Shown here: one piece after another, positions 40,535-50,567 of the stretch
Layout of the letters: every line of letters starts with the position of its first letter
Numbering within the stretch: the first letter of the stretch is position 1
DNA from: Nitrosopumilus sp.
Lineage (GTDB): Archaea > Thermoproteota > Nitrososphaeria > Nitrososphaerales > Nitrosopumilaceae
Reading direction: 5' to 3'
DNA: 64,000 nt
NCBI RefSeq assembly: GCF_025699255.1
Contig: NZ_JAILWA010000004.1
Location: forward strand, 1 to 64,000
The notes under the pieces: model-generated
What the model was told of the DNA's origin: nothing
Databases searched by the model: none
What the model saw: the letters and a program-made list of their open reading frames with translations, nothing else
Program-made: the position numbers and the translations under genes

Positions 40535-43500
40535 ATGAATAACGAAATAGGACGTAAAATAACTAGTCTTACATTAATGACAATTATGTTAGCCGGTGGT
40601 TTAACATTTGCAGCACCTGGTGTAATGCCAGCTGCATTTGCAGCCAACGCTAACCTATTTGTTTCCGCAGAAAACTCACAGTTTGACAATTACATGTCAG
40701 GTCCTCAAGTAATTGAGGTAGTCATAATTGATTCTGATATCAATGATACAGATGAAGCAAAAGGTGAACCCGATGTTACAGTCAACGGAAAGATCCTGAG
40801 AATGGTTCAAGGTGTTGACGGTAACTGGTATGGATACTTTGCAGACAGAACAATGGCAAGTATCGCAGATTCTACCACAACCATTAGTGGTTCTGGTTTA
40901 GACTTCGGTACATTATGTGCAACAGGCGCAGCAACCAATACCGCAATAGGTTTCAATGTTGACGATACTTCAGGTATCGCAGTACCAAATAACGATGTAG
41001 GTGGTTCTAATGGAACTTCTACTGGTGCTGCACTTACAGCAACATGTACTACTGCAACTACTGGTGATGCCAATGGCACTGCAAACGTTGTTAGAGAAGC
41101 AAAAGATCCAAACACCAATTCAGCTGTTAGCACAGGCCAAATTGGTCTTGCTAGTACTGATATGTGGCCATTTATACAACTCTATCCTCTAAATCCAACT
41201 GGTAATGTTGTCGTACAGTACAACAAAGGTGGTGGTGCTCAATCAACCACATTAACCTTTGATACTGTTGATCAATTTGCTGGTGCAGAATTAGACAGAG
41301 CTATATATCCAAAAGGCGCACAAATTCATGCAACAATTACTGACTTATGGTTAAACATTGACCCAACTGATGAAGACTCTTGGACATTTGGTACAGTTAG
41401 CACTAATGCAACAAGTAGAGGTGCTCACTACCAAGTATTCGATGAAAACGGAGCAAGCGGTGGTACCGCAATTAACATAGATTCTTCAGTATCCTCACTT
41501 ATGTGTGAAGATAACTGTAGACTTCTAGTTAATCCTAACGTACAAGGTTCAACTAACCCTGTACTCACCATTCAAGATAACGATGATTCTATCCTTGATA
41601 ACTTGAATGCAACCAGAGGAACAACTGCAGCTACAAGTAACAATGCAACTGCATTTGGTATTTTAGCTCAAACAGCTGCCTTAGGTTTAGGTTCAGTTCC
41701 TGTAACAATCACCGAACAAGGTCCAAACAGTGGTGTATTTGGTACATATGATGAATCAGATGTATCAGTATTACAAATAACAACAAATGCAAAGAGGGGA
41801 ACCTCCGCATCCGTTGATTATAATGAAACACCAGTAACTGTTCTTGTAGGATTCGGCTTTGCAACAATTGACATCCAGCCAACAGATGATGAATGGAGCT
41901 CTGGTGAAGAGATTCCAGTAATCATCGTTGACAGTGATCAAAACAAAAACAGCAGAGTTGATGAAGACTTAGATTTAGACAACACAGAAATCACACTTGT
42001 TCCTGCCTTAAAGACCGGTGATCCATTTACAATTGGTGAAGCCGCTAATGGCAGTGATGGATACAGAGTAAGTATATTCAACGGAACTTTGAACAAAGGT
42101 GCAATTTCAGCAACAGGTAATGCTGATGTTGGAACTGCAGGTAGTTTAAGTTCAGCCGTGTTGAATTTTACTGCTGGTAACCAAACAGTAAGTAGTGCTT
42201 TAGTGGATACATTCAGTCAAAGACTGATTACTACACAAACAGCAAATACTACTGCTCAAGTTGGTTTAGCTGTAGTTGACTTAGACACAACATTAGAAGA
42301 ATTACAAAAAACTATCTCTCAAGCAGATAGCACTGGCGCTATTTTCAACTTTTTCAACTATAACGTTGAATCATTTGGAACAGATAGAGTAAGTATTTAC
42401 TTACTTAACCAAACCAGTACAATTCTTGATTCCTCTAGCAACTGGCAACTAAATTCAACCGGAAATAACGCAATCGTACTTGTAGCAAATGGTACAGGTC
42501 AAGGTTACGTTTCATTAGACGGTTCAGATGATCAGTTGTTTGCTAATACTGGAGATGCCGCTGATCAGAAACTTGGACTCTTAATTGAATTCAATGATGT
42601 TTCTGGTTCAGGCCTTGGTGTTAACGGTATTGATGAAAAAGAGGCTATTGTTGCTGACTTCTTCTCATTCGGTTTCACAGATGATGGTGTACAAGCATCC
42701 GAAAGGATTGCACACCAAATCATCAGAGTTGAAGCTGAAGAAACAGGTGATAACACCAGTACATTTGAAGGTTCACTTGAGTATATCATGGTAAACCAAC
42801 TCAATATTATTGATGTTAACACATTTGCAGGTATTTCACCAATCGCAGACGATCCTTCATTCATTGTGATTGAAGATTTGACTGACGAAGATTCACCTAG
42901 ATTGTCATACAATGACTTAGGTGCAGATGGTGTAGTAACTCCAATATCTGATCAAGAAGAAGCTCCAAGTCACTCTGGTGTTGTATCTTTCAATCAAGAC
43001 TCTTACAAGATAGCTGACACTGTAATTATTACTCTAGAAGACTTAGATCTTAACGTAGACTCTGATCTTATTGATATTTACACTACCGTCATAGACGTTG
43101 GTGATGTTGATAATGATCAAGTTGGTTCAGATGTACCAACTGCACAAGAGACCCTTTCATTTGGTTCTCAAGGTAGACTCCTTGATATCACATTCGATGA
43201 TCTCAAATGGACTAATACCGGTACAACATGTAACGCTGATGGTGATGATGGTCTTGCCGCTACTGGATTTACTCTGGTAGAGACAAGCAAAGATTCTGGA
43301 AAATTCCTCGGAGATTTCCAGATTCCATCCAATTGGTGTAGAAGTGATGGTACAACTGATGTCCCAGCTTCAGCAAAAGAATCTGTAACTGGACTCGACA
43401 TTGAAGTCAACTACGTAGACTACAGAGACGCATCTGGTGAAATCATCGAAGTCGGTGATTCAGCAGGTGTACGCGCAAACACAGGTTCAGTAAGCCTTGA

Positions 43501-45667
43501 CAGAACTGTTTATCCAGTACCATTTGGTATTCCAGATAACTTTGCTGCAGGTACAACTGAAACTCCATCAAATAGATCAGTATTCCCAGTACACCAAACA
43601 GGAACTGGAGTAGATACTGATACTACACTTGATGCAGGAGAATTCCTTGTTAGCGGTGATCTAATTGTCCACTTAAGAGTAAATGATCCAGACTTTGACG
43701 TTAACCCAGCTGGTGAAGATTCTATTGCCGCAAACTCCACAGCCGGCTATGGCCCAGTTAAAATCTCTGTAATTAGAGGTTCTAGCGAAGTTGTACTCGG
43801 TTATGCTGGTGGCCCAGCAGAACTCGACGGCCCAATTGATGTCGCCGATAATGCACCAAAAGCTGCCAGACAATTTGGTCCAATCGATGAGATTGCACCA
43901 GATGCAGGAATTTACGAATTAGATCTAACCGTAAGATACACTGATGGTCCAGCAAGTACAACCTGTCCTCCAACCACTGTGTTTGAGAACATTATTGGTA
44001 CTAGCACAACAACAGAAACATCCAGATTTGATGTTGCCGCAACAACTGGTGATTACTGTATCCTACAAGGAGATATTCTCCAAGTAGAATACACTGATCC
44101 AGCTGATGCTTCTGGTGACATTAACACTGTAACTGATTCTGCTACATTTGACCTAAGAAACGGTGTATTGCAATCCGACAAATCCGTATACATTATCGGT
44201 TCCGACATGATCTTAACACTCATTGAGCCAGACCTTGATCTTGACAATGATAGTGCTGAGACCTATGACTTGGACTTAATTGAATGGGACTCTGATGCTG
44301 CTACCACAACCATGGGTAACCTTGGTGTAGGTGCAACTGCATTTGACCCAGAACCCGACGCCTTCAGAGAAACAGGTGACAGCACTGGTATCTTCCAGGT
44401 TGTTATCGAGATTCCTGATGCTCTAAGTAATGATAAACTCGAAAGAGGTGAAGAAATTATCTTAGAGTACACCGATTGGGGTCCATCCGGTTCAGATTAT
44501 GTAGGTGATGAAGATGAAGATGTAAACATTACATTGTTCACTTCTAACTTCGGTGCAACTGTCGAACTTGACCAAAAAGTATACTCATGGACTGACAAAG
44601 TCTACATTACCATAGTCGCTCCAGATCACAACTTTGACGGTGATCTAGTTGATGAAATTGGAAACACTTCTGAAGACCCAATAAAGGTCTCCACAAGAGG
44701 ATTCAATCTTGACAACTACAAACTCGTCGAAACTGGAACTGACACAGGCATCTTCACAGGTGAAGTAATCCTCACAGGATTTACAGCACATGATGCAGAT
44801 GGCGATGGTACTACAGGCGATGCATCCGGCTCAATTTCCAGTGACGGCAGTGGTCCAACTGATGGACTGCTACCAACTGATGATGATGACGGTATTACAG
44901 TCTCCTTTGAATTCTCAGAGGATGAAACTGTAGTCGGTTCAGCACTTATCAGATGGAATATTGGTGAGGTACAATGGTTAGAAGCAAGCTATCCAGCTAG
45001 CGGAACAGGTGTTGTAAGAGTAATTGATCCAGACATGAACTTAAATCCAGAAGCAGTCGACAACTTCGATGTCGATGTGTGGTCTGACTCCGATGCCGGA
45101 GGTATTGACCTTACTGTAACTGAGACTAATGAGGCAACCGGAATCTTCGAAGGTACTGTATTCTTTACAGTCTCTGACGAATCATCTGGTCACAGACTCA
45201 GAGTCGCAGAAGGTGACACTGTCACCGCAGAATATGAGGACAATACATTACCAGATCCGTACACAACTGCAGATGAACTTGATATCACTGCCACTTCACT
45301 AATTGGTACTGTTGTACCACCTCTCGAGAGAGCACCAGCTGCTAACTTGAGAACAGTTGATGCCTTCGGTAACAGCTTAGATGCTGTTTCTGTTGACCAA
45401 CAGGTGCAAATCAGTGCTGACTTAGCAAATGGTCAGGATAGAGAGCAATCATTCGCATACTTGGTACAGATCCAAGATGGTAACGGTGTTACAGTCTCAC
45501 TAGCATGGATTACAGGTTCACTATCTGCTGGTCAATCATTCAGCCCAGCATTATCATGGATTCCAACACAAGCAGGAACTTACACAGCAACTGCATTTGT
45601 ATGGGAATCTGTAGATAATCCAACGGCATTATCACCACCAGTCAGTACAACTGTAAGCGTAAACTAG
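40535..45667 (+). CDS. S-layer protein
   Basis: 1710 residues, the size and style of the main surface-layer protein of marine ammonia-oxidising archaea. Signal peptide at residues 1-36 (hydrophobic TLMTIMLAGGLTFAAPGVM, cleavage near AAFA). The mature chain is a series of Ig-like beta domains, very rich in Asp, Thr, Gly and Asn. Each unit tends to open with a motif like DPDxNxD or DSDxNxD (about residues 66, 268, 463, 833, 1049, 1230, 1360, 1496), probably Ca-binding. The C-terminal roughly 110 residues form a CARDB-like beta domain, with no membrane helix or anchor. Codon choice is richer in C-ending codons (AAC, GAC, TAC) than neighbouring genes, as expected for heavy expression. Confidence 0.93.
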   Translation: MNNEIGRKITSLTLMTIMLAGGLTFAAPGVMPAAFAANANLFVSAENSQFDNYMSGPQVIEVVIIDSDINDTDEAKGEPDVTVNGKILRMVQGVDGNWYGYFADRTMASIADSTTTISGSGLDFGTLCATGAATNTAIGFNVDDTSGIAVPNNDVGGSNGTSTGAALTATCTTATTGDANGTANVVREAKDPNTNSAVSTGQIGLASTDMWPFIQLYPLNPTGNVVVQYNKGGGAQSTTLTFDTVDQFAGAELDRAIYPKGAQIHATITDLWLNIDPTDEDSWTFGTVSTNATSRGAHYQVFDENGASGGTAINIDSSVSSLMCEDNCRLLVNPNVQGSTNPVLTIQDNDDSILDNLNATRGTTAATSNNATAFGILAQTAALGLGSVPVTITEQGPNSGVFGTYDESDVSVLQITTNAKRGTSASVDYNETPVTVLVGFGFATIDIQPTDDEWSSGEEIPVIIVDSDQNKNSRVDEDLDLDNTEITLVPALKTGDPFTIGEAANGSDGYRVSIFNGTLNKGAISATGNADVGTAGSLSSAVLNFTAGNQTVSSALVDTFSQRLITTQTANTTAQVGLAVVDLDTTLEELQKTISQADSTGAIFNFFNYNVESFGTDRVSIYLLNQTSTILDSSSNWQLNSTGNNAIVLVANGTGQGYVSLDGSDDQLFANTGDAADQKLGLLIEFNDVSGSGLGVNGIDEKEAIVADFFSFGFTDDGVQASERIAHQIIRVEAEETGDNTSTFEGSLEYIMVNQLNIIDVNTFAGISPIADDPSFIVIEDLTDEDSPRLSYNDLGADGVVTPISDQEEAPSHSGVVSFNQDSYKIADTVIITLEDLDLNVDSDLIDIYTTVIDVGDVDNDQVGSDVPTAQETLSFGSQGRLLDITFDDLKWTNTGTTCNADGDDGLAATGFTLVETSKDSGKFLGDFQIPSNWCRSDGTTDVPASAKESVTGLDIEVNYVDYRDASGEIIEVGDSAGVRANTGSVSLDRTVYPVPFGIPDNFAAGTTETPSNRSVFPVHQTGTGVDTDTTLDAGEFLVSGDLIVHLRVNDPDFDVNPAGEDSIAANSTAGYGPVKISVIRGSSEVVLGYAGGPAELDGPIDVADNAPKAARQFGPIDEIAPDAGIYELDLTVRYTDGPASTTCPPTTVFENIIGTSTTTETSRFDVAATTGDYCILQGDILQVEYTDPADASGDINTVTDSATFDLRNGVLQSDKSVYIIGSDMILTLIEPDLDLDNDSAETYDLDLIEWDSDAATTTMGNLGVGATAFDPEPDAFRETGDSTGIFQVVIEIPDALSNDKLERGEEIILEYTDWGPSGSDYVGDEDEDVNITLFTSNFGATVELDQKVYSWTDKVYITIVAPDHNFDGDLVDEIGNTSEDPIKVSTRGFNLDNYKLVETGTDTGIFTGEVILTGFTAHDADGDGTTGDASGSISSDGSGPTDGLLPTDDDDGITVSFEFSEDETVVGSALIRWNIGEVQWLEASYPASGTGVVRVIDPDMNLNPEAVDNFDVDVWSDSDAGGIDLTVTETNEATGIFEGTVFFTVSDESSGHRLRVAEGDTVTAEYEDNTLPDPYTTADELDITATSLIGTVVPPLERAPAANLRTVDAFGNSLDAVSVDQQVQISADLANGQDREQSFAYLVQIQDGNGVTVSLAWITGSLSAGQSFSPALSWIPTQAGTYTATAFVWESVDNPTALSPPVSTTVSVN

Positions 45668-45677
45668 TTCACATTAT

Positions 45678-45696
45678 CCTTTTTTTCTTTTTTTTG
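45678..45696 (+). terminator. Oligo-T terminator after the S-layer gene
   Basis: Two T runs (CCTTTTTTTC and TTTTTTTT) begin 11 bases after the stop codon. No stem-loop precedes them, as is normal for archaeal intrinsic termination. Confidence 0.65.
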
Positions 45697-45743
45697 AATA
45701 CTACCTAACGTAAGTTATAGACAATTTTTCCAGAAGTAATATC

Positions 45744-45764
45744 TAGGAGAACATGAGTCATTAA
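45744..45764 (+). promoter_or_regulatory. Shine-Dalgarno plus three-codon mini-ORF before the anchor gene
   Basis: TAGGAG is followed three bases later by ATG AGT CAT TAA (45753-45764), and the real start ATG 45770 comes five bases after that stop. The ribosome site is well placed for the mini-ORF and too far (about 20 bases) for the gene itself, suggesting start-stop-reinitiation control. Confidence 0.35.
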
Positions 45765-45769
45765 TTAAA

Positions 45770-46741
45770 ATGAAATATAGAATATTGTTTTCTATTTTAA
45801 TTATTCTTTTGTTTGTAAATATTCCAAATTCTTATTCAGAAGGACTTGAATTATTTACAAATAGTAAAGTCTATGCACCTGCACATACTTTGCAAGTATA
45901 TGGCAAAGGATTGCCCGAAGAAAATCTCATCATACGAATATTTGCACCAGATGAAACCATTGCAAAATTTGATCAAATTACAACTAATAAAGATGGTTCT
46001 TTTAATTACGGATTGCTTACTTGGCCTGAACCATCAACAAATTTTCCTTATGGAACGTATACAGTTGAAGTAATCAGTACAGAACAAAATGGAATATCTC
46101 AAAAAATTGATGTAAAATTTTCATCATCAACTGAATTACTTGATGTAACTGTAGAAAGATTTGTAAATACTTTGGTTTTTGCTCCTGAAACTGCAGCAAT
46201 CAATCAACCAATTCGTGTATTTGTACAAACCACTAGTGATGGTTTACTAATTGGAAATGAACCATCAGAATTATTGGGTACTACACATGTCCATTTACCT
46301 TCTGGCACATCTGTTTTATTATCTAATTCCTTTAAGACACTGCACCAAGGATTATACTATGTAGATTATACTCCAATCGAAGAAGGAACTCATGTATTTC
46401 ATGTAGTTGCATTTAGTCAGGGAACTACTTCACACGGTTCAGCTGCAACAAATGTTCTAAGCCAAGATCTTGGAGGCATCTCAGAACAAATAATCAAACT
46501 AAATTCAATTTTAGATGAAACATCAAGTGAGCTTGATACATTAAAATCTGAAATCTCTGGATTTGGGTCCACACTTGATACTGCAAGTCAAAAAATTGAT
46601 GAAAGTACTGGAACTATTTCTACCTCTGTTGAATTTATCAGCGAAGCATCCTCGCAACTAAATTCATTATTGTTCCCAATCATTGCATCCATAGGAATTA
46701 TTGTTGCATTACAAATTGCTATACTTGCACGAAGAAGATAG
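45770..46741 (+). CDS. Surface protein with beta domains, coiled coil and C-terminal membrane anchor
   Basis: 323 residues. N-terminal signal peptide (ILFSILIILLFVNIPNSYS), two beta domains (about residues 25-120, resembling MG2/Ig-like modules: VYAPAHTLQVYGKGLPEENLIIRI, and 120-225), then a predicted coiled coil of about 60 residues (QIIKLNSILDETSSELDTLKSEI...TASQKIDESTGTIS), and a C-terminal membrane helix (LLFPIIASIGIIVALQIAIL) ending in ARRR. This is the architecture of a membrane stalk such as SlaB of Sulfolobales, but similarity in sequence is not claimed. It follows the S-layer gene by about 100 bases and has its own promoter and ribosome site. Confidence 0.75.
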   Translation: MKYRILFSILIILLFVNIPNSYSEGLELFTNSKVYAPAHTLQVYGKGLPEENLIIRIFAPDETIAKFDQITTNKDGSFNYGLLTWPEPSTNFPYGTYTVEVISTEQNGISQKIDVKFSSSTELLDVTVERFVNTLVFAPETAAINQPIRVFVQTTSDGLLIGNEPSELLGTTHVHLPSGTSVLLSNSFKTLHQGLYYVDYTPIEEGTHVFHVVAFSQGTTSHGSAATNVLSQDLGGISEQIIKLNSILDETSSELDTLKSEISGFGSTLDTASQKIDESTGTISTSVEFISEASSQLNSLLFPIIASIGIIVALQIAILARRR

Positions 46742-46772: not shown

Positions 46773-49700
46773 ATGCCCAAAGCGGCTATTTTCTTTTTCA
46801 TTATTCTTATATCGTCTACATTAACAAATTCATACGGATTTATTTCTAAAGAATCAATATATGAAGACAATCTACAAAAATCAATAATATTTAATTCAGA
46901 TATTATTGATATTGATGAAGATTTTTTTGTTGAAAATGGTTTCAAAAGATATTTGATTTTTGGAAATGGCCTATCTGAACATGATTTAAAAAAATTAAAT
47001 TCACTATATCAAATTCAATCTGACACTGGTTTTTTTTCTGTATCTGTCTTATCTGAAAAATCTGCATTTAATTTAATCTCCCAAGGATATACAGTAATAG
47101 AAGATTTTAAATTAGATTTTCATAACACGGATGAAGAATTTCAAGATGCATCTAGAATAGGTGAAATCACAGGTTCAACTCTAGCTAAAAAAAAGTATAA
47201 TTCGTCTGGTAATGGAACTGTAATAGCAATAGTTGATACTGGAGTAGATTTTTCCAATCCTGATATACAGCATTCTGTTGCACGTGACAAAAACAATCAT
47301 CCAATAATGCTTGATCCTGATGGACAAGGAATTGTTCTTACTAATGCAACTTTTTTTGCATATATAGATGAAAATGAAATAATAAGAAATTATAGCAAAC
47401 CAATCCCTTCACACATGACCTCTTCTGCATATGTTACCCGAGATGGTGTATTTCTTGATGTTTCTCAAGATGGCAAAGGAAGTCAAATCCCAATTTACAA
47501 TTCATTTTATCCACAATATGGAAACTCTGTAATTTTTAATGGCACTCTAGCCATTGATATGAAAATTGGAGAAGACAATAGAAATTACATAAAATCAAAA
47601 AGTGGTGTGTATCATGTAGGAATAATATACCAAGGTGGTTTGCAAGGACAACTTGCAAGAATTCAAGTTGTACCTGTACTCTTAGTTGATTCATTTACAC
47701 CTGGAGTATATGATACAATGATACCTGATCTAAGTACTTCATGGGAAGATTACACTCGGTTTGAATTAAAATCTGGAGAAAAACCAAACTATGATTTTGA
47801 TTTCACTGATGAAAAACCTATCATTTTAGGTAGTGGAAAGGAATTCCTTGTTTATGATTCAAACGATGATGGTAAAAATGATTATAGCGCAGGAACATTT
47901 GGAGCACAAGTTCTAGATGTATATGGTGTAATCAAAAATAATCACACAAACATTGATGATTCATTAAAAGCAATTAATGGAACATTGCTTCCTGGATTAG
48001 ATCCTGATGGTGAATTTTTTGGTTTGATGACTGATTTTATGGGACATGGAACGTCAAGTGCAGCATCAATTACGTCACGTGGGATAATGCCTTATGATAT
48101 TTACAATGATTCAAAAAAACATTTTATTACTGGCGTTGCACCTGATGCAAAAATTCTTCCTGTAAAGGCATTATGGTTTGGTGATACTGTATATGGATGG
48201 TTATGGTCTGCAGGATTTGAGAATAAAGATCAAGAATGGAAATTCTCAGGTAAACCTAAAGTTGATATTATTTCCAACAGCTGGGGTGTTTCAAACTTTC
48301 CAACCTTTAATGCATCTCCTGGAATGGATATCTTATCATTAATTCTAAGTGTATTGACTACTCCAAATTCTTTAGATGATAACTATCCTGGTGTCACAAT
48401 TATTTCAAGCGCTGGAAATTCAGGTCATGGCTATGGGACAATTGGATTACCAAATGCATCTCCGCTTGGAATTTCAGTGGGTGCAACTACTAACAATGTA
48501 TTTGTTGGATATGGTCCATTCAAAGATCAACCTAGATTTGGAAATACTACAACTCATTCAAATCATATAGTTGATTTTTCAAGTAGAGGACCTGGTATTA
48601 TAGGAGATCCTAAACCTGATATCATGAGTATTGGTGCTCATGGTTTCACTCCTTCAAACGTTCTAAAGACACAAAAAGATTCTAAAGATGAATCCTTCTC
48701 TTTGTTTGGAGGAACAAGTATGGCCGCACCAATTGTTTCAGGAAGTGCAGCTGTATTAATTGAAGAACTAAAAAAACAGTCACAAGACTATGATTCATTT
48801 TCTATAAAGAACATCCTAATGTCAACAGCTACTGATCTGTATAATGATCCGCTAACTCAAGGTTCTGGTTTGGCAAACATTGAATCTGCACTAGATTATA
48901 TAAATGGAGAAAATGGAGTTTTTATTGTTCACAATGATAATTCATATCATAACATCAAAAACATACTTGATCCTGCAGTTGAAAAAATAAATTCTACGTC
49001 GATAGGATTTGAAAAATTCCAATTGTCTTCACGCTCATTTCCTATGACGAGCTGGTTTGCAGGACAACTTCTTCCAGGAGATAGAACAACAACAACTTTT
49101 ACAATTGACAATCCCACTAATGATACTCTAACAATTAATGTAAAGCCAGAAACTCTGTCATTGATGTTAAAATCCCAGTTTAATGGTACGACTATACCTA
49201 AGCAACAAGATTCTATTCTAAATAAGACTGATACGTTCATACCAAATTATGTTAAATTATCTGAACTTGGAAATTCTACTGAACTTTTGACATTTTTTAA
49301 TGACAAAAATCCCATCCCTGATGAATCTTCATTAATGGTACTAAATGTGAATTTTGATTTTAATGATTTTATGAATAAAACATCTGATACATATGCTGAT
49401 GATTTGAAAATTTCATCTCTTTATCTTTATGATTGGCTCGATAACAATAATGATACTAAAATTACAAGTGATGAAATTTCTATGGTTAATAGAGCTGGTT
49501 CATGGGGAACAGTTCAAGAACTTAGAGTTTCAGAACCCAATGATAAATTTGAAGGAGTACCATTAATTGGTGTTTATCCAGTACCAACAAGGTATTCATA
49601 TTGGTTAGGTGATACAAAACAAAATTCTACATCAATGGATTATACAATTTCTGCTAGCTATTATCAAAAAGAAAAATGGCCTCTTATCTGGTCTGAATCT

Positions 49701-50567
49701 GACACAATTACCGTTAAACCTAAAACTTCATCTACTGTTGATGTCACATTAATTACTCCAAATGATCTTCAAACTGGAGTTTATCAAGGATTTCTAACTT
49801 TTCAAGGTGACAAACATAAAGTAAATGCACCAGTATCTTTTGTAATTAAACAACCTGTTCTAGAAAATGATTCTACTATTGTAATACAAGGAACCCAAAA
49901 TGATGATGTACTTTATGGAAATGGATACACAAAAGGAGCATTTGATATGGTTAATCGTTACATGGCAGGTGATTGGAGACAATATTATTTTGATATTCAA
50001 AATGAATCTATCAATACAGCTGCAATAGAACTTTCATGGATTAGTAATGACACAAACTTGTCTGTATTTGTCATGAATCCTTATGGCGAAATAATTCAAA
50101 CAAATGTTCCTTCTGGAGTATTTGGACATTTTATGGGATGGGCTTCTCTTGATTGGCTTGGTAACTCTATCTTTAGTCAGGGTGGTGGTTTTTTCCCTGT
50201 AAAGAACAAAGATGATACTTCAACAGTTTTATATGTTCCAATTAACCAAACTGGAACTTATACTCTTTTAACACATTCAACTTTGTTTGGTGGTTCTTCA
50301 ACAACTGAACCTATTACATTGTCAGCTAAATTTACCAACATTTCTCCAGAAATGAAAATAGATGATGTTCAAAATGAAATTGAGATAATGTCAATTCCTA
50401 CAACAAATGAAAAATTTGTAATAATTAATGAAACCAAATCTAATACTGATTCTATTACTTCAAAATCTGAATTGCCATTTAATCTTGGTATTGGTATTGG
50501 TATAGTCATTGGAATTGCGATCGGAATTGTTTTGATTTTTATCATGAGACAAAAACCTCCTAAGTAA
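46773..50567 (+). CDS. Large membrane-anchored subtilisin-like serine protease (S8)
   Basis: 1264 residues. Signal peptide (AAIFFFIILISSTL), a propeptide-like region to about residue 135, then a subtilase domain with the triad Asp155 (IAIVDTGVDF), His425 (GHGTSSAAS) and Ser649 (GGTSMAAPIVSG). The 270-residue gap between Asp and His is much longer than usual and must hold an insert domain. Beta-rich C-terminal domains follow, and a final membrane helix (LGIGIGIVIGIAIGIVLIFIM) with a short basic tail. A TATA-like element (GTTATAATAAT, 46741-46751) lies about 27 bases upstream. Neighbours suggest a role at the S-layer (processing or turnover), which is inference. Confidence 0.92.
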   Translation: MPKAAIFFFIILISSTLTNSYGFISKESIYEDNLQKSIIFNSDIIDIDEDFFVENGFKRYLIFGNGLSEHDLKKLNSLYQIQSDTGFFSVSVLSEKSAFNLISQGYTVIEDFKLDFHNTDEEFQDASRIGEITGSTLAKKKYNSSGNGTVIAIVDTGVDFSNPDIQHSVARDKNNHPIMLDPDGQGIVLTNATFFAYIDENEIIRNYSKPIPSHMTSSAYVTRDGVFLDVSQDGKGSQIPIYNSFYPQYGNSVIFNGTLAIDMKIGEDNRNYIKSKSGVYHVGIIYQGGLQGQLARIQVVPVLLVDSFTPGVYDTMIPDLSTSWEDYTRFELKSGEKPNYDFDFTDEKPIILGSGKEFLVYDSNDDGKNDYSAGTFGAQVLDVYGVIKNNHTNIDDSLKAINGTLLPGLDPDGEFFGLMTDFMGHGTSSAASITSRGIMPYDIYNDSKKHFITGVAPDAKILPVKALWFGDTVYGWLWSAGFENKDQEWKFSGKPKVDIISNSWGVSNFPTFNASPGMDILSLILSVLTTPNSLDDNYPGVTIISSAGNSGHGYGTIGLPNASPLGISVGATTNNVFVGYGPFKDQPRFGNTTTHSNHIVDFSSRGPGIIGDPKPDIMSIGAHGFTPSNVLKTQKDSKDESFSLFGGTSMAAPIVSGSAAVLIEELKKQSQDYDSFSIKNILMSTATDLYNDPLTQGSGLANIESALDYINGENGVFIVHNDNSYHNIKNILDPAVEKINSTSIGFEKFQLSSRSFPMTSWFAGQLLPGDRTTTTFTIDNPTNDTLTINVKPETLSLMLKSQFNGTTIPKQQDSILNKTDTFIPNYVKLSELGNSTELLTFFNDKNPIPDESSLMVLNVNFDFNDFMNKTSDTYADDLKISSLYLYDWLDNNNDTKITSDEISMVNRAGSWGTVQELRVSEPNDKFEGVPLIGVYPVPTRYSYWLGDTKQNSTSMDYTISASYYQKEKWPLIWSESDTITVKPKTSSTVDVTLITPNDLQTGVYQGFLTFQGDKHKVNAPVSFVIKQPVLENDSTIVIQGTQNDDVLYGNGYTKGAFDMVNRYMAGDWRQYYFDIQNESINTAAIELSWISNDTNLSVFVMNPYGEIIQTNVPSGVFGHFMGWASLDWLGNSIFSQGGGFFPVKNKDDTSTVLYVPINQTGTYTLLTHSTLFGGSSTTEPITLSAKFTNISPEMKIDDVQNEIEIMSIPTTNEKFVIINETKSNTDSITSKSELPFNLGIGIGIVIGIAIGIVLIFIMRQKPPK

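Follow-up and report, generated by a model that had tools for sequence, protein, structure and literature searches.

A slaB-type gene beside the S-layer gene of Nitrosopumilus and its probable role as a membrane stalk

Introduction

The locus described here raises the question of how the S-layer of ammonia-oxidising archaea (AOA) is held at the cell membrane. The window, that is, the whole 64,000-nucleotide stretch of DNA that was analysed, belongs to a Nitrosopumilus genome of 1.65 Mb in 20 contigs (G000), and carries an S-layer protein (SLP) gene followed on the same strand by a gene for a smaller membrane protein. In Sulfolobus, cryo-ET has shown that SlaB is a trimeric membrane stalk that holds the canopy (PMC6911244; PMC10903991). 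According to the main text of von Kügelgen et al. 2024 (Nature, PMC11153153), genes for a SlaB homologue are present in N. maritimus and in most Nitrososphaerota; it is described as a minor component whose C-terminal transmembrane domain, a feature shared with the window protein, potentially anchors the canopy. The gene is also tabulated across cultured AOA (main text of PMC11559005). The preliminary description of the locus held that an anchor for this type of S-layer would be a new component, a view that these two papers overturn: the core finding is real and has been known since 2024. Because the main texts of both papers give no locus tag, identity with the window locus is inferred, and the published N. 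maritimus homologue is almost certainly the orthologue of the window gene. Gene order leads one to expect the tag Nmar_1546 for the N. maritimus gene, and a literature search for this tag found no paper. Adjacency of the genes, the spacer and the length of the coil, all treated below, are not discussed in the main texts of the two papers.

Results and discussion

The S-layer protein and the architecture of the slaB product

The SLP is an orthologue of Nmar_1547 (NmSLP), and its residues 1–1709 match the N. maritimus S-layer protein (PDB code 8c8k) with 2526 bits. The preliminary description regarded the SLP as lacking an anchor, in agreement with its close orthologues L049 and L050, where no C-terminal membrane segment was found. 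The SLP and the features of the slaB-type gene are located as follows.

40535..45667, + strand: SLP gene, 1710 aa (match to PDB 8c8k)
45770..46741, + strand: slaB-type gene, 323 aa plus stop (open reading frame and translation, homology, AF2, Foldseek)
45770..45838, + strand: Sec-type signal peptide, residues 1–23 (read by eye; AF2 helix 2–16)
45848..46120, + strand: beta-sandwich domain 1 (beta-1), residues 27–117 (AF2, profile matches)
46163..46459, + strand: beta-sandwich domain 2, filamin/macroglobulin-like, residues 132–230 (AF2, structure and profile matches)
46463..46666, + strand: heptad coiled coil of 68 residues (232–299), about 10 nm, net charge −9 (periodicity test, AF2)
46667..46738, + strand: C-terminal transmembrane helix (300–318) and ARRR tail (orthologue hydropathy, AF2)

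The strand opposite to the slaB reading frame is stop-rich throughout, and the frame is conserved at the protein level in 53 full-length orthologues, which indicates that it is a gene. The signal peptide (MKYR, a hydrophobic core, and a cleavage site between SYS and EG) provides the secretion signal expected of a SlaB. The AF2 model (mean pLDDT 82, pTM 0.53, from an alignment of 36 sequences) consists of an N-terminal helix (2–16), two beta-sandwich domains, the number found in some SlaBs, and a single helix spanning residues 234–322. Ahead of the C-terminus, as in SlaB, the continuous helix contains a coil of ten heptads whose 'a' positions are all occupied by I or L, with a period of 3.5, a periodicity equalled by none of 5000 shuffles; the beta regions served as controls and gave no significant signal. 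Hydropathy of orthologues with the same C-terminus places a single transmembrane segment at 300–318. This layout, including the membrane helix with its ARRR end, is the one that had been read from the sequence beforehand; the coil, estimated then at roughly 60 residues, measures 68. No phage relative was found when sought.

The overall plan is that of SlaB from Sulfolobus acidocaldarius and S. solfataricus (8qox chain B), with a signal peptide, beta-sandwich domains, a coiled coil, a C-terminal membrane helix, a gene adjoining the canopy gene and profile-level homology. The window protein has two beta domains, like SlaB of S. solfataricus and S. islandicus, whereas the S. acidocaldarius protein has three; two-domain SlaBs were already known (PMC6911244). 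Its helix is shorter (about 89 residues versus 132 in Sulfolobus SlaB). Unlike Sulfolobus SlaB, it has no N-glycosylation sequons, which average 0.9 per slaB orthologue against 2.7 expected by shuffling. The Sulfolobus canopy protein is not recognisably related to the window SLP. The length of the SlaB coil ranges from 54 to 170 residues, or approximately 8–25 nm. The coils of Nitrosopumilaceae are built of heptads, and those of distant members have an 11/3 (hendecad) periodicity; the coils of L036, L039, L042, L043 and L044 were compared with that of the window protein.

Homology to Sulfolobales SlaB

The slaB product had been described as sharing no visible sequence similarity with the stalks of Sulfolobales, a statement that profile comparisons contradict. 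A profile from an alignment of 16 slaB homologues drawn from across the order (A1) was searched against 177,635 PDB sequences, and S. acidocaldarius SlaB (8qox_B) ranked first with an E value of 1.8e-12, in two stretches that together span nearly the whole profile; the runner-up was filamin (1.8e-5). With hhalign, the alignment scored 99.5% when compared with Sulfolobales SlaB, and 99.8% when the comparison was with short, bridging SlaB-like proteins from other Thermoproteota; omitting the coil changed these values to 98.1% and 99.5%, respectively. Reversed alignments stayed below 2%, and column-shuffled controls scored at most 18 versus 96 and 143. Similarity is visible even from the single sequence, which matches the NCBIfam SlaB model NF040788 over the first beta domain (E value 2.5e-9), with a score of 36.6 that lies far under the curated cut-off of 700 bits of this Metallosphaera equivalog model. 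The model is matched by 15 of the 16 members of A1. As sole proof of SlaB membership the NF040788 match was rejected, since 226 of 300 genomes of the phylum and several bacterial controls match it, and since beta-1 also occurs in PEFG-CTERM proteins.

In a Foldseek search of 350,542 chains, 8qox_B was the first hit (E value 3.7e-9) with a low TM-score of 0.31, probably reflecting different domain orientations. The top 50 rows of VIA-align do not contain SlaB, which is not evidence for a different fold; the top rows list macroglobulin domains of complement, which the beta pair also resembles. The TM-score and these top rows are nevertheless counted against the assignment. The region closest to Sulfolobales SlaB is beta-1. 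Judged from profiles, the homology to characterised SlaB is real.

Since beta-1 is also present in four PEFG-CTERM-type proteins encoded in G000, the resemblance to SlaB might reflect just this shared domain, the window protein being an ordinary thaumarchaeal surface protein of a PEFG-CTERM-like type with a common Ig-like domain. We regard this as very improbable. The Sulfolobales SlaB model gives 32 bits on the window protein, through both the beta-1 and the coil segments, versus 1.5–17 bits on the four PEFG-CTERM-type proteins. Like the window protein, these contain a domain resembling beta-1 and end in a hydrophobic segment, but they differ in having a PEFG sorting motif, in lacking a coiled coil and in not being located beside the SLP. 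An NCBIfam scan of the slaB product gave no match to the PEFG-CTERM sorting signal (TIGR04296), which matched a positive control within the same genome at 1.6e-12; the 68-residue coil and the adjacency to SLP genes across many genera also stand against this explanation. The four PEFG-CTERM-type proteins with a SlaB beta-1-like domain form a cluster (L150:12684-13610 and L151:64-2867, − strand).

Pairing of slaB with the S-layer gene

The slaB gene starts 102 nt after the SLP gene, and this adjacency, to which the preliminary description gave weight, proved to be widespread. The SLP gene lies directly upstream of slaB in 52 of the 59 named loci with sufficient room (62 loci were named, three of them without room). 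The pair is also present in ten distant genomes (L032, L033, L035, L036, L037, L039, L040, L042, L043 and L044); distant families of the order keep it with gaps of 5–295 nt, and the same gene order was found in Sulfolobales and other Thermoproteota families. The gene thus sits beside the canopy gene, as is usual for SlaB. A contig titled Nitrosomonas sp. MAG (L082) carries an SLP–slaB locus 86% identical to that of the window; the record is probably mislabelled or contaminated.

Absence of the gene from genomes with the same S-layer had been proposed as a result that would refute a stalk. The prediction held within the genus, where all eight single-contig genomes carry both genes, and across the 52 named loci, and did not hold for a distant genome (G061, discussed below) that has SLP-type proteins and no recognisable SlaB. 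The seven loci that keep slaB without an adjacent SLP gene are counted against the main reading. At three of them (L115, L138 and L128), a moeB-like gene lies directly upstream of slaB, and the position thus contains no SLP gene. One of the three belongs to the Ianthella basta symbiont (G020), whose genome encodes several S-layer-type proteins elsewhere; six S-layer proteins have been reported as expressed in this organism (PMC6790972). A true loss of slaB was considered for the 16 genomes of the genus that lack it, and was rejected: all are drafts, and none shows a high-identity C-terminus of the main SLP among the matches listed, which makes assembly breaks likelier than loss. Three Nitrosocosmicus-like genomes (G066, G089 and G097) lack both SLP and slaB, in agreement with the absence in Nitrosocosmicus given in the main text of PMC11559005; the label itself was inferred partly from that absence.

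The usual next gene encodes a subtilase, beyond which lie genes interpreted as encoding a Rieske protein and cytochrome b.

46773..50567, + strand: subtilase with a C-terminal membrane helix, putatively linked to the S-layer (open reading frame, domain match, synteny)

The subtilase gene is absent downstream of slaB in seven loci (L122, L123, L125, L126, L139, L140 and L142), in which slaB is closely followed by the Rieske gene.

The spacer and the expression of slaB

The spacer between the two genes (45668–45769) is strongly conserved and contains two elements that look like expression signals.

45680..45695, + strand: conserved T7-C-T8 tract after the SLP stop, a predicted, likely transcription terminator
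45734..45745, + strand: conserved AAGTAATATCTA box lying about 32 nt upstream of the slaB start, a predicted, likely core promoter

In Nitrosopumilaceae, the spacers have a T6-7-C-T7-8 tract right after the SLP stop, and the best 20 nt of the spacer contain on average 16.0 T versus 11.7 in shuffles. The box AAGYAATATCTA is almost always found 32 nt before the slaB start in this family, even where the SLP gene is absent. Because the box by itself is not rare within the window, the promoter argument rests on its conserved position. The spacer also holds a TAACGNAAGTTA-like palindrome. This organisation suggests that transcription may terminate after the SLP gene and start anew from a slaB promoter, and separate expression would fit the low abundance of SlaB reported for N. 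maritimus. In deeper families, where the gaps measure 5–24 nt, the two genes look like operons.

The C-terminal domain of the S-layer protein

The N-terminal half of the SLP is highly variable among species, with stretches of 22–30% identity, in contrast to a membrane-proximal end with some 90% identity. Relative to the window SLP, identity is 44% over residues 1–600 and increases to approximately 90% at the C-terminus, where a candidate docking domain is located.

45290..45664, + strand: last 125 residues of the SLP, with a CARDB-like fold, candidate SlaB-docking domain (conservation, fold)

Almost all of the SlaB-adjacent SLPs examined, whether from Nitrososphaerota or from other families, carry this domain at their C-terminal end; in Sulfolobales it is marginal. 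It corresponds to the tenth SLP domain of N. maritimus, which is not resolved in the cryo-EM map, and the main text of PMC11153153 suggests that it may anchor the layer to envelope molecules, lessening the need for SlaB, a suggestion that counts against a stalk function of the window protein. We consider that the tenth domain could be the part of the SLP that faces SlaB.

Six secreted proteins of G000 end in this domain, none of them with a C-terminal membrane helix: the SLP, a second SLP of 1704 aa, a mini-SLP of 392 aa, a 358-aa protein, and two stand-alone proteins of 145 and 130 aa. The five proteins other than the window SLP are encoded at the following positions.

L152:2805-3242, − strand
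L153:2895-3287, + strand
L151:10684-11862, + strand
L154:2230-3306, + strand
L051:1491-6605, + strand

Since the six proteins share the domain and lack a membrane helix of this kind, SlaB could be a shared anchor. That the last SLP domain is a SlaB-docking module, and that a single SlaB serves several such proteins, is put forward tentatively, as a possibility that may well prove wrong. The genome G061 (loci L034, L155, L158 and L173) argues against strict docking: this draft, 97% complete, has SLP-type proteins and about 30 copies of the domain, and no recognisable SlaB was found in it. In one protein of the same genome (L173), domains like beta-1 of SlaB are combined with the SLP C-terminal domain.

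As modelled, the domain resembles both CARDB and the carbohydrate-binding domain of Wzt, and its ligand may accordingly be a glycan. This bears on an alternative for the window protein, namely that it associates with the S-layer without bearing load, for example as an assembly or nucleation factor or as a tether for the subtilase, with the SLP held in place by its own C-terminal domain, which would bind glycans or lipids of the envelope. The likeness to carbohydrate-binding domains, the domain copies of G061, and the low abundance of SlaB relative to SLP together with the tenth-domain proposal in the main text of PMC11153153 all favour such an arrangement. A tether for the subtilase is at odds with the loci that keep slaB and lack the subtilase gene downstream, and a protein that bears no load is at odds with the stalk layout of coil plus membrane helix and with the homology to a proven stalk. 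We therefore judge this alternative to be unlikely.

A thaumarchaeal SlaB as a membrane anchor of the S-layer

The product of the slaB gene is very probably the thaumarchaeal SlaB: a membrane protein of type I that forms a stalk under the SLP lattice and anchors the S-layer. Homology to the Sulfolobus stalk seen by cryo-ET makes anchoring the most likely function, and the membrane-stalk reading of the preliminary description is well supported by architecture, conserved pairing and homology. In such a stalk, the C-terminal helix would sit in the cytoplasmic membrane, the coiled coil, probably a trimer by analogy, would span part of the pseudo-periplasm, and the two beta domains would meet the underside of the lattice, where the C-terminal, membrane-proximal end of the SLP is the probable point of contact. 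A p3 S-layer like that of Sulfolobales has been reported for Nitrososphaera viennensis (PMC4129164), and by analogy its symmetry would fit trimeric stalks in that organism; the N. maritimus S-layer is described as pseudohexagonal in the main text of PMC11153153.

The same main text reports a considerably lower abundance for the N. maritimus SlaB homologue than for its SLP. Being scarcer, SlaB cannot anchor every subunit, and would act as a substoichiometric membrane anchor. The N. maritimus cryo-EM data described there show only diffuse density under domain 9 and no stalk, which counts against the stalk reading, as does G061.

We have not found reported elsewhere the shared candidate docking domain, the conserved spacer, the range of coil lengths or the change from heptad to hendecad coils. 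The way in which the S-layer of ammonia-oxidising archaea is held above the membrane determines how large the space is in which ammonium gathers, and what it contains. That a SlaB homologue exists was known already, yet its scarcity left the anchoring unexplained; the candidate docking domain, the variable coil length and the separate expression signals now lead to testable predictions of where the lattice is tethered, how far from the membrane and how often.
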